The notes beneath the pieces are model-generated. The model saw only the letters and a list, made by a program, of their open reading frames with translations. It searched no databases and was not told the origin of the DNA. The translations under genes and the position numbers were made by a program. From Marinobacterium mangrovicola (lineage in GTDB: Bacteria > Pseudomonadota > Gammaproteobacteria > Pseudomonadales > Balneatricaceae): DNA of 64,000 nt. The DNA is taken from contig NZ_SMFU01000007.1 in assembly GCF_004339595.1 (NCBI RefSeq), positions 310,001 to 374,000 of the forward strand. Direction: 5' to 3'. Below are positions 49,250 to 53,107 of this stretch, piece by piece. Within the stretch, counting starts at the first letter, position 1. Each line of letters opens with the position of its first letter.

Positions 49250-49335
49250 TTCTCTACAGTAATACTTGCCAGTCCGCCCTTTGCACTTGTTCGGCTCTTG
49301 TTCGGTGCGGGGCAGGCTGGTAGTATTGCCCGCGC

Positions 49336-49456
49336 TCTTGGGGGAGTAGTCTGCTTTCCGGTTCCCAGCCGGTGAGCGTCACTGTCAACATAATTGAGCC
49401 TCAATGCTCATGGCAGTGACAACCGTACGTAGCCGGCGGTTTGACGAGACCTAAGA
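49336..49456 (+). ncRNA. yybP-ykoY manganese riboswitch aptamer
   Basis: The conserved elements are in order: GGGGGAGTAG near the 5' end, TGTCAACATAAT, a CACTG/CAGTG stem pair, then ACGAGACC at the 3' end. The P1 helix is formed by TCTTGGG (49336-49342) with CCTAAGA (49450-49456), 7 bp with one G-U. The class binds Mn2+ and commonly controls UPF0016/MntP type exporters, as is the case here. Confidence 0.9.
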
Positions 49457-49519
49457 CACAGCATGCTGCTCTAGGCGGGCCAGCGTGATTGTGTCTTATG
49501 GTTTATGCCCGCCTGGAAG
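49452..49519 (+). promoter_or_regulatory. Riboswitch expression platform with alternative helices
   Basis: TAAGACACA (49452-49460) can pair with TGTGTCTTA (49490-49498), 9 bp, and shares bases with P1. TCTAGGCGGGC (49470-49480) can pair with GCCCGCCTGGA (49507-49517), 11 bp with one G-U, covering the GGA of the ribosome site. The last two helices cross and exclude each other. Translational control is thus likely; the polarity is not decided here. Confidence 0.65.
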
Positions 49520-49526
49520 TCTGTCA

Positions 49527-50090
49527 ATGGAAGCTTTTCTCTCTTCTACTCTTGCGGTTGCTATCGCCGAAATCGGTGATAAAACGCAGCTGCTTACTCT
49601 CTTTCTCGTTGCTCGTTTCCCGGCGCAGCGGATGGCCATTATTCTCGGTATTCTGATCTCTACCCTGGTTAACCATGGTATCTCAGCCTGGTTTGGCGCC
49701 TGGCTTGTGGAATGGATCCCGCAAAACTGGGTTCCCTGGATTATCGGTTTGAGCTTTATCGCCGTGGGTCTCTGGGTGCTGGTACCGGACAAGGATGATG
49801 AAGAGGAGGGCGGTGCTCTCAAATATGGTGCTTTCATTGCGACCTGTATTCTCTTCTTTATCGCCGAGATTGGTGACAAAACCCAGATTGCTACGGTGAT
49901 TCTCGCGGCACGCTACGAAGATGCATTGCTGGCGGTAGTGGCTGGCACGACCCTGGGCATGTTGCTCGCCAATGTCCCGGTGGCCTGGTTCGGTGGCTGG
50001 TTGATGCAGAAGATACCGCTGCACTGGGTCCGCTGGAGTGCCTGCGGACTGTTCGTGTTGCTTGGGGTGGCTTCCCTGACGCAGTTATGA
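49527..50090 (+). CDS. UPF0016/GDT1 family manganese exporter
   Basis: Membrane protein of 187 residues with six hydrophobic helices in two repeats. Each repeat holds the signature EIGDKTQ (about residues 15-21 and 112-118), whose acidic residues bind the transported ion. Bacterial members (MneA/Mnx) export Mn2+. The ATG at 49527 with GGAAG upstream is preferred over a GTG 42 bp earlier, because the latter lies in the expression platform. The manganese riboswitch supports the substrate. Confidence 0.92.
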   Translation: MEAFLSSTLAVAIAEIGDKTQLLTLFLVARFPAQRMAIILGILISTLVNHGISAWFGAWLVEWIPQNWVPWIIGLSFIAVGLWVLVPDKDDEEEGGALKYGAFIATCILFFIAEIGDKTQIATVILAARYEDALLAVVAGTTLGMLLANVPVAWFGGWLMQKIPLHWVRWSACGLFVLLGVASLTQL

Positions 50091-52350: not shown

Positions 52351-52409
52351 TGTTTGGTAGTTCATGTTTGGTGGGAAAGCCGCGCTGCTATGGTTGGCTT
52401 GGCGCAGAA

Positions 52410-52589
52410 ACAACAAAGCCCCGCGGTTAGGCGAGGCTTTGTCGTGAAATTTAATGGTGGTGAGGGGTGGATTGTTCCCCTTCGGGCCGCCGTGCGTTGC
52501 ACGACGTCGTCTCGCGCGCTCTTGGCGATTATGTCGCTCGGCTCGAACCACCTTCGGCGATTCTCATCCATCCTTGGTTTTGCGTAGAT
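52410..52589 (-). repeat. tRNA-Tyr downstream repeat, unit 3 (distal)
   Basis: 180-bp unit. On the minus strand it contains a structured middle, the last 19 nt of tRNA-Tyr at 52455-52473, then a terminator-like hairpin (ACAAAGCC and GGCTTTGT arms) at about 52412-52443. It is the furthest copy from the tRNA. Confidence 0.9.
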
Positions 52590-52769
52590 ACAACAGAGCC
52601 CCGCGGTTAGGCGAGGCTTTGTCGTGAAAATCAATGGTGGTGAGGGGTGGATTGTTCCCCTTCGGGCCGTCGTGCGTTGCACGACGTCGTCTCGCGCGCT
52701 CTTGGCGATTATGTCGCTCGGCTCGAACCACCTTCGGTGATTCTCATCCACCCTTGGCTTTGCGCAGAA
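52590..52769 (-). repeat. tRNA-Tyr downstream repeat, unit 2
   Basis: 180-bp unit. tRNA 3'-end copy at 52635-52653; hairpin at about 52592-52623 with base changes in the arm (CAGAGCC for CAAAGCC). Period to unit 3 is exactly 180 bp. Confidence 0.9.
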
Positions 52770-52938
52770 ACAACAAAGCCTCGCGATTAGGCGAGGCTTT
52801 GTCGTGAAATTCAATGGTGGTGAGGGGTGGATTGTTCCCCTTCGGGCCGTCGTGCGTTGCACGACGTCGTCTCGCGCCGTCGGCGCTCGGCTCGAACCAC
52901 CTTCGGTGTTTCTCATCCACCCTTGGCTTTGCGTAGAA
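52770..52938 (-). repeat. tRNA-Tyr downstream repeat, unit 1 (proximal)
   Basis: 169-bp unit, 11 bp shorter than the others by replacement of a hairpin segment. tRNA 3'-end copy at 52815-52833; hairpin at about 52772-52803. Confidence 0.9.
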
Positions 52939-52972
52939 ACAACAAAGCCCCGCGATTAGGCGAGGCTTTGTT
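52939..52972 (-). terminator. Terminator directly after tRNA-Tyr
   Basis: Minus strand: ACAAAGCC and GGCTTTGT arms with CGC/GCG inner pairs, then TTGTTT. The same hairpin closes each of the three downstream repeat units. Confidence 0.85.
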
Positions 52973-52983
52973 GTGAAAATTAA

Positions 52984-53067
52984 TGGTGGTGAGGGGTGGA
53001 TTCGAACCACCGAAGCTTGCGCGTCAGATTTACAGTCTGATCCCTTTGGCCACTCGGGAACCCCACC
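52984..53067 (-). tRNA. tRNA-Tyr (GTA)
   Basis: 84-nt class II tRNA with encoded CCA. Acceptor GGTGGGG/CCTCACC, anticodon loop CTGTAAATC (GTA), long variable arm and T-loop GGTTCGAATCC are visible on the minus strand. It is the only tRNA in the window. Three tRNA-end repeats follow it downstream. Confidence 0.97.
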
Positions 53068-53078
53068 AGCGGCCGCGT

Positions 53079-53107
53079 ATAATAGAGATCTCGTCGGGGG
53101 CTGTAAA
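53079..53107 (-). promoter_or_regulatory. Sigma70 promoter of tRNA-Tyr
   Basis: Minus strand: -35 TTTACA (53102-53107), 17-bp spacer, -10 TATTAT (53079-53084), then a GC-rich discriminator typical of stable-RNA promoters. Confidence 0.8.

Follow-up and report, generated by a model that had tools for sequence, protein, structure and literature searches.

What are the three repeats that follow the only tRNA gene of a 64-kb stretch of Marinobacterium mangrovicola DNA (hereafter the window), and why does each of them end in a copy of the end of that tRNA? The question matters beyond this locus: according to PMC8144298, tRNA-linked repeats (TLRs) were first described in 1978 and are still without a known function. 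ARAGORN placed the sole tRNA of the window, tRNA-Tyr(GTA), at 52984–53067 on the minus strand. Its 19-nt tail, AATCCACCCCTCACCACCA, lies at 52984–53002 and recurs exactly at 52815–52833, 52635–52653 and 52455–52473, with spacings of 169, 180 and 180 bp; a sequence check thus bore out the arrangement given in a preliminary description of this DNA made from the letters alone. The chance of meeting one given 19-mer within 600 positions is about 2 × 10−9. Tandem Repeats Finder described the stretch 52394–53002 as 3.4 copies of period 180 with 92% matches. The same hairpin had been reported after the tRNA and after each copy, and four near-identical hairpins were indeed found there. Because only one of the four passed a consensus terminator scan (minus strand, 52618–52597), we call them terminator-like. 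The array comprises the following features.

53079–53107, minus strand: promoter-like site TTTACA-17-TATTAT upstream of tRNA-Tyr, a consensus match only
52984–53067, minus strand: tRNA-Tyr(GTA) with encoded CCA; the split copies derive from its last 28 nt (GGTGGTTCGAATCCACCCCTCACCACCA)
52940–52969, minus strand: terminator-like hairpin 3′ of tRNA-Tyr, rejected by the consensus terminator scan
52815–52937, minus strand: RtT/TLR unit 1 (RF00391, 55.6 bits)
52915–52922, minus strand: P1 5′ strand of unit 1, GGGTGGAT, pairing with ATCCACCC of the tail copy
52892–52901, minus strand: X of unit 1, GGTGGTTCGA, the first 10 nt of the split tRNA copy and also the P2 3′ strand
52833–52891, minus strand: core of unit 1, 59 nt, hairpins P3–P5, of the type without P6
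52815–52832, minus strand: Y of unit 1, ATCCACCCCTCACCACCA, the remaining 18 nt of the split tRNA copy
52771–52800, minus strand: terminator-like hairpin 3′ of unit 1
52635–52768, minus strand: RtT/TLR unit 2 (RF00391, 55.1 bits)
52653–52722, minus strand: core of unit 2, 70 nt, with X at 52723–52732, Y at 52635–52652 and the P1 5′ strand at 52746–52753
52591–52620, minus strand: terminator-like hairpin 3′ of unit 2, where the scan accepts a terminator at 52618–52597
52455–52588, minus strand: RtT/TLR unit 3 (RF00391, 48.7 bits)
52473–52542, minus strand: core of unit 3, 70 nt, with X at 52543–52552 and Y at 52455–52472
52566–52573, minus strand: P1 5′ strand of unit 3, GGATGGAT, one base different from GGGTGGAT
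52411–52440, minus strand: terminator-like hairpin 3′ of unit 3, the end of the array

Read along the minus strand, each unit consists of a 5′ strand, GA, a hairpin P2 whose 3′ side is X, the core, Y and the terminator-like hairpin. Joined together, X and Y give the gapless last 28 nt of tRNA-Tyr in all three units. The copy is broken at the T-loop, after the T-loop A (GGTGGTTCGA|ATCCACCCCTCACCACCA), and the gap is filled by a hairpin core of 59–70 nt. The 19-nt block that had first been taken as the copied part is exact as far as it goes, but the real copy is 28 nt long and is divided 10 + 18. In the fold predicted for 52815–52983, which covers unit 1 and the preceding hairpin, P1 is formed by the 5′ strand of the unit paired with ATCCACCC of Y; the z-score was −4.6, and none of 200 shuffled sequences was as stable.

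A new member of the RtT family

All three units exceeded the curated cut-off (45 bits) of RF00391, the Rfam family RtT. They stand in tandem behind tRNA-Tyr as RtT units do, and, like E. coli TLRs, which share 18–19 nt of the 3′ end of the upstream stable RNA, all three match their gene over 19 of 19 nt. We therefore assign the array to the RtT/tRNA-linked-repeat family as a new member; the family itself is already known, and the new part is the reading of unit anatomy across targets. The preliminary description had rightly seen the likeness to the E. coli tyrT repeats, calling the array independent or distantly related, with a body sequence that need not be related. The distant relationship stands. 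An independent origin of the unit body is rejected on the RF00391 scores, and the body is related; under a second model, R1, the E. coli K-12 tyrT/tyrV units, four in number, also reached 109–114 bits. The 55 units behind R1, all linked to a tRNA or tmRNA, include window unit 1, an overlap with which the 81.1 bits of that unit have to be read. An assembly artefact, named in the same description as a case that would overturn it, is unlikely, as arrays of this kind recur in other genomes at corresponding places.

The E. coli RtT units (tyrT/tyrV, rttR; ordered tyrT-unit-tyrV-three units in K-12, L218) resemble those of the window in their place behind tRNA-Tyr, unit length, 19-nt tail copy and core hairpins, whereas the window core lacks P6. 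The Rfam outer stem fits the window units, but in the two of them compared several inner Rfam pairs are non-standard; our alignment favours P2 as GAACC..GGTTC and a P6 with tandem G-A, and a passage on RtT in PMC7657543 agrees with the tandem G-A. E. coli TLRs, including rrA, rrB and rrF behind 5S, have in common with our units the 18–19 nt of 3′-end identity and the one to several tandem copies (PMC8144298). Beyond these, the units studied here follow nine kinds of gene including tmRNA, occur in a family outside the class, and carry a tail copy that is split and longer; the accessible TLR account in PMC8144298 makes no mention of tmRNA-linked units.

RF00391 matched 21 of the 57 genomes of relatives that were searched and, in wider sets, 39 of 293 at the level of the order, 66 of 369 at that of the class and 47 of 398 at that of the phylum, with the own genome counted each time and 24 of the last 47 coming from one family outside the class; these counts rest on strict filters by which weak matches are lost. 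With R1 we obtained 300 matches in 203 fetched loci and studied the 280 that reached at least 30 bits, 269 of them distinct. Left out were 32 distinct units that could not be parsed into X, core and Y and, for P6, 89 of 227 distinct cores (138 used). The upstream gene in the 186 gene-linked loci was tRNA-Ser (66), Tyr (35), Gln (31), Arg (23), Lys (15), Pro (5), tmRNA (5), Val (4) or Glu (2), and in 181 of them the first unit began no more than 75 nt from the gene end on the same strand; having been picked by family matches, these loci show where units sit, not what fraction of tRNAs has units. Of the five tmRNA units, L138 and L161 retain 18 nt of the tail of the tmRNA and the other three only part of it. 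Short units behind tRNA-Lys at four loci met in the P5–P6 pattern scan described below (L325, L332, L340, L356; GTGAAGGATAACGTTGC...), without P2 and P3, represent a minimal form of the family. In E. coli, the tyrV-rttR stretch was matched in 5375 of 5426 genomes, in 4683 over at least 80% of its length (the query includes the tRNA). A search of phages gave no match, and a plasmid search gave one weak match covering 16% of the query.

M. mangrovicola shares its genus with Marinobacterium lacunae AK27 (G002), 600 bases of whose locus were found unchanged in NZ_JMQN01000036.1 (L275). Within the M. mangrovicola genome, R1 gave five matches with E no higher than 1, all of them behind a tRNA or what reads as a tRNA remnant. 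A unit behind tRNA-Ser scored 43.5 bits with RF00391, below the cut-off, and 66.3 bits with R1. At this locus (L053, 587–1000), an extra partial copy of the tRNA-Ser 3′ end lies between the tRNA and the unit, perhaps a remnant of an integrated element. No unit was found at the second tRNA-Tyr of the genome. A decayed unit (R1, 26.1 bits; L448, contig 3 near 585889) follows a tRNA-Arg remnant and is preceded by the same 41-nt tRNA-Arg end as a locus in another genome (L037, 2448–8221; G034 contig 149). There, an insert separates a tRNA-Arg with a first RtT unit from a 41-nt copy of the tRNA end, which stands at the right end of the insert and precedes two more units. The insert holds an ORF for a UvrD-like helicase (Pfam) along with ORFs that have no Pfam match, and no integrase was seen in it; it looks like an integrative element carrying a unit.

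Unit ends and unit cores

Across the family, the outer parts of a unit track the upstream gene, while the core is alike across gene kinds. The tail copy was identical to the upstream gene at 18 of 18 positions in 159 of 239 distinct units and at 16 or more in 190. Mean tail identity was 16.4 of 18 with the own gene versus 11.2 with genes of other isotypes (239 units), and X matched the own gene for at least 8 nt in 62% of 217 units versus 20% for other isotypes; since the sequences are related by descent, such isotype controls overstate independence. The 5′ strand (P1) likewise pairs better with the own gene than with other isotypes, over two T-loop bases, the T-stem and three acceptor positions, a complementarity that is partly forced because the partner of P1 is the gene's own tail. 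Watson-Crick pairing at T-stem positions 3 and 4 was 0.81 and 0.74 with the own gene versus 0.51 and 0.44 with others, and at acceptor positions 1–3 it was 0.69, 0.61 and 0.51 versus 0.33, 0.31 and 0.24, falling to about background beyond.

The copy begins sharply at the T-loop: among 167 first units, identity was 0.01–0.04 at positions −5 to −2 and 0.78 at −1, and then 0.83–1.00 through the tail, the value of 1.00 at positions 0 and 1 arising by construction as the anchor requires AT. It fell after the CCA in the same units, from 0.86 at the last A to 0.74 just after and about 0.60 four bases on. For the cores, the nearest neighbour of 218 units with a known gene belonged to the same isotype in 131 cases and to another in 87. 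In one genus (g90), two tRNA-Arg units of one genome (G227) carry a core nearly equal to that of a tRNA-Ser unit in another (G163), so that their ends are Arg-like and their core is Ser-like; a different kind of core is present in the tRNA-Arg unit that G163 also has and in two units of G072, from another genus of the same family. Units of tRNA-Ser and tRNA-Arg have apparently exchanged a core in this genus. The unit in G207 is cut off after its P1 strand.

Evidence that the units act as RNA is mixed. In a MAFFT alignment of 55 units (A1), a structure with P1, P2, P4, P5 and P6 gave 86.7% paired cells versus 73.6 after shuffling, 196 changes on both sides versus 69.1, and a covariation of 0.346 versus 0.152; none of 500 shuffles was as high, and slid versions reached at most 0.125. 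Covariation was strongest in P1, P4 and P6; RNAalifold alone returned 12 pairs only. Tandem G-A, with GA on both sides, was present in P2 in 42 of 55 rows and in P6 in 33 of 55. Counts of G-U against A-C mismatches differed between helices: 16 to 3 in P2, 7 to 0 at the outer pair of P6 (138 parsed cores) and 17 to 3 in 167 hairpins with C(GNA)G loops, as against 3 to 3 at the inner P6 pairs, 13 to 24 in other core hairpins, 50 to 46 in P1 and 10 to 11 in P4. Over all core hairpins the count was 30 to 27, and in a tRNA/tmRNA control of 146 genes it was 14 to 5. Since some helices prefer G-U and others do not, selection on the units at the RNA level is supported only in part. Among triloops, 178 of 312 were GNA, and among tetraloops 24 of 123 were GNRA.

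Similar cores outside tRNA tails

Cores without a tRNA also exist elsewhere, a fact that could not be detected from the window letters on which the preliminary description relied. The P5–P6 pattern GGCCCGNAGGGYGAG..CGARTMATCC, run once over the species genomes collection, gave at least 119 stretches; GGCCCGNAGGGYGAG is absent from the M. mangrovicola genome. The matches listed comprised 116 units in 80 loci, of which 81 lay within 1.5 kb behind a tRNA, 62 of these with 17 of 17 tail positions; among the same listed matches, 35 units had no upstream tRNA in the available piece, some because the piece ends. We read 18 loci of this last kind, and 11 contained palindromic repeats built as TCAT[T/C]C...GGA|core|ATCCA, with such cores in Thiohalobacter, Sedimenticola, Stenotrophobium, a Rhodanobacteraceae genome and others. 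A loose palindrome pattern (36 rows) was discarded, as some rows were enterobacterial tRNA-Arg units, and replaced by the strict form TCATTCC...GGA|ATCCA, of which the fetched loci hold 23 distinct cases; eight of the 23 palindromes also occur identical and uninterrupted in a fetched locus. The P5–P6 pattern, with which palindrome cases were first met, requires ATCC after the core and thereby partly builds in the right-hand palindrome target. A second pattern, inspected in its 30 fetched loci, was free of this bias; many of its matches were chance occurrences in coding DNA. When tested on 19 palindrome sources, which stand for 18 distinct places, R1 matched every one (E 3 × 10−8 to 9 × 10−3 over 127 kb); these sources had been chosen because the pattern occurs in them or, for three, because R1 itself had found them.

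These palindromes, TCATTCC..GGAATCCA with cores similar to those of the units, recall BIME/REP repeats, for which a likeness to rtT has been reported in Enterobacteria, with rtT-like attenuators before gatY, rbfA and cvpA (PMC2965389); the section consulted has no description of the GGA|ATCC split or of the T-loop parallel. Unlike BIME/REP repeats, the window units are not dispersed, and units elsewhere in the M. mangrovicola genome do not lie scattered in intergenic DNA away from RNA genes.

A similar core was also found in rrB, the 5S tail repeat of E. coli (R1, E 3.4 × 10−4). The core in rrnB is preceded by GAGTAGGA, which resembles the part of 5S that leads up to the copied block, GAGTAGGGA|ACTGCCAGGCAT; no clear P1 could be made out by eye in this repeat. 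Whole tRNA copies are split as well. ARAGORN, run on the joined flanks of 237 parsed units and 177 pattern cores, called tRNAs at 33 joins, and 17 were rejected as artefacts in which the join fell within or across the end of an intact tRNA. The 16 that remained after inspection are split at GGTTCGA|ATCC (one at GGTTTGA) and comprise 12 tRNA-Lys and one tRNA-Tyr of Photorhabdus and one case each in G540, G440 and G627; one of the 16 has an odd anticodon (L180). Outside these, three tandem tRNA-Gln copies (L192) and partial copies at L160, L186 and L191 were recognized by eye. So were two tRNA-Ser pseudo-copies just upstream of the intact gene (L098, L166), in which the core sits in the D-arm at GGCTGA|A; ARAGORN made no call on these joined copies, whose ends are decayed. 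In the pseudo-copy of L166 (524–602), a further hairpin insert of another kind seems to lie ahead of the D-arm core. Three Photorhabdus loci (L274, L248, L254) consist of arrays of core-split tRNA-Lys copies whose 5′ parts vary and whose tails are intact in nearly all. Joined flanks without target-site duplication give back a tRNA tail in the window, a tRNA in the 16 split copies and an existing palindrome in eight of the 23 strict cases. An open-access literature search with sequence strings returned no title on such a cassette.

Origin of the units

The reading that we favour, with evenly balanced confidence, is that the window units are RtT RNAs: tRNA tail copies that would have been split by a dispersing, RNA-structured cassette, transcribed by read-through and released in a tRNA-like manner. 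The promoter of the tRNA most likely drives the array, and read-through past the hairpin after the tRNA would yield a longer transcript. Because the unit tail is the tRNA tail, the tRNA 3′-end machinery could then free each unit with a tRNA-like CCA end, and the 5′ strand, complementary to the tail copy, may close the whole as a branched RNA. The core would be a small cassette, kept in tandem behind a strong RNA gene and able to sit after ...GA in structured sequences with no duplication of the target site; its sites would be tail copies and whole copies of tRNAs, the 5S tail copy and dispersed palindromes. Cores would move between loci partly by exchange between units of different tRNAs, and also with integrative elements that use the same tRNA.

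This cassette reading builds on the several kinds of target and on the joins without duplication. Against it, whole-tRNA splits could instead arise by recombination at bases shared by tRNA and unit, 13 of the 16 split tRNAs come from Photorhabdus, the right-hand palindrome target is partly built into the P5–P6 pattern, and the mismatches over all core hairpins (30 G-U, 27 A-C) are not RNA-like. Nor did a link to transposases emerge: seven genomes, six of them with R1 matches, gave 40 Y1_Tnp matches, and no core lies in any of the 30 loci fetched from these. Tentatively, and with somewhat less than even confidence, we propose that RtT/TLR units, the E. coli rrnB terminator spacer and the dispersed palindromes carry one mobile RNA-structured cassette, inserted precisely after ...GA. 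It would be mostly 54–83 nt long, enter hairpin-forming genes without target duplication, and have as targets the T-loop or D-arm of tRNAs, the tmRNA T-loop, the 3′ end of 5S rRNA and the stems of intergenic palindromes. If true, this would be a minimal mobile element parasitising structural RNA genes, and a relic of it would lie in the much-cloned T1-T2 region of rrnB. If a dispersing cassette did split tRNA tails to give the units, tail identity gets a reason, and the origin of the units can be tested by comparing filled and empty sites.

The units could instead be dedicated small RNA genes of tRNA operons in which the tail copy serves as a 3′ processing signal and the likeness to palindromes is secondary or convergent. 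That the units are a family of small RNAs in this genome is plausible, and the covariation, which no shuffle equalled, the excess of G-U over A-C at the P6 outer pair, in P2 and in C(GNA)G-loop hairpins, the fall of tail identity after CCA and the near-constant presence of tyrV-rttR in E. coli (5375 of 5426 genomes, tRNA in the query) are in keeping with it. So are reports on E. coli relatives in PMC8144298: they are transcribed, and RrB is processed and binds CsrA and Hfq, its repeated 5S tail being, as Stenum et al. suggest, recognised by RNase E. The same source gives TLRs no known function and records the retraction of an earlier claim that the tyrT repeat acts in starvation. With a patchy occurrence (21 of 57 relatives, 66 of 369 class genomes, own genome counted in both), no G-U preference in inner P6, P1, P4 or other hairpins, and the cores in palindromes and tRNA copies left unexplained, we consider dedicated small RNA genes a possible but doubtful account. 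Backup terminators, repeated hairpins that would insulate a strongly transcribed tRNA gene, might be read from the four hairpins of the window and from the many first units in which the tail copy runs into the post-CCA stretch. Such terminators would need neither the conserved core nor its pairs, one of four hairpins passed the terminator scan, and for 73 of 153 first units the 55 nt that follow the gene and the 55 nt that follow the unit have no stretch above 8 nt in common, making this explanation distinctly improbable.

Two further accounts invoke mobile DNA. Integrative elements that target tRNAs leave a similar mark, a copy that starts sharply at the T-loop and runs to CCA and often past it, and the units might be the debris of such attachment sites at the tRNA 3′ end: the insert of about 5.5 kb in tRNA-Arg (L037) carries a unit behind the restored tRNA, and in the own genome this 41-nt piece recurs ahead of a decayed unit (L448). 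What sets the window array apart from such elements is the core between the halves, tandem units of about 180 bp and, on reading the ORFs beside it, no integrase; none was seen in L037 either, and attachment sites explain neither the T-loop start of the copy nor a core common to isotypes, so that we judge this origin improbable. An element acting as single-stranded DNA through GNA-triloop hairpins and moved by an HUH (Y1) transposase would agree with the predominance of GNA triloops (178 of 312) over GNRA tetraloops (24 of 123), with G-U being no commoner than A-C over all core hairpins (30 and 27) and with joins that, as in IS200/IS605 and RAYT systems, show no target duplication. Such a DNA-hairpin element was not kept, being very improbable indeed given the excess of G-U over A-C in C(GNA)G loops (17 to 3), P2 (16 to 3) and the P6 outer pair (7 to 0).

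Apart from the array, the window contains a match to the yybP-ykoY manganese riboswitch at 49329–49512 on the plus strand (47.2 bits; cut-off 45). It reaches into the ORF at 49485–50090, whose translation, by eye, resembles a UPF0016-type membrane protein.
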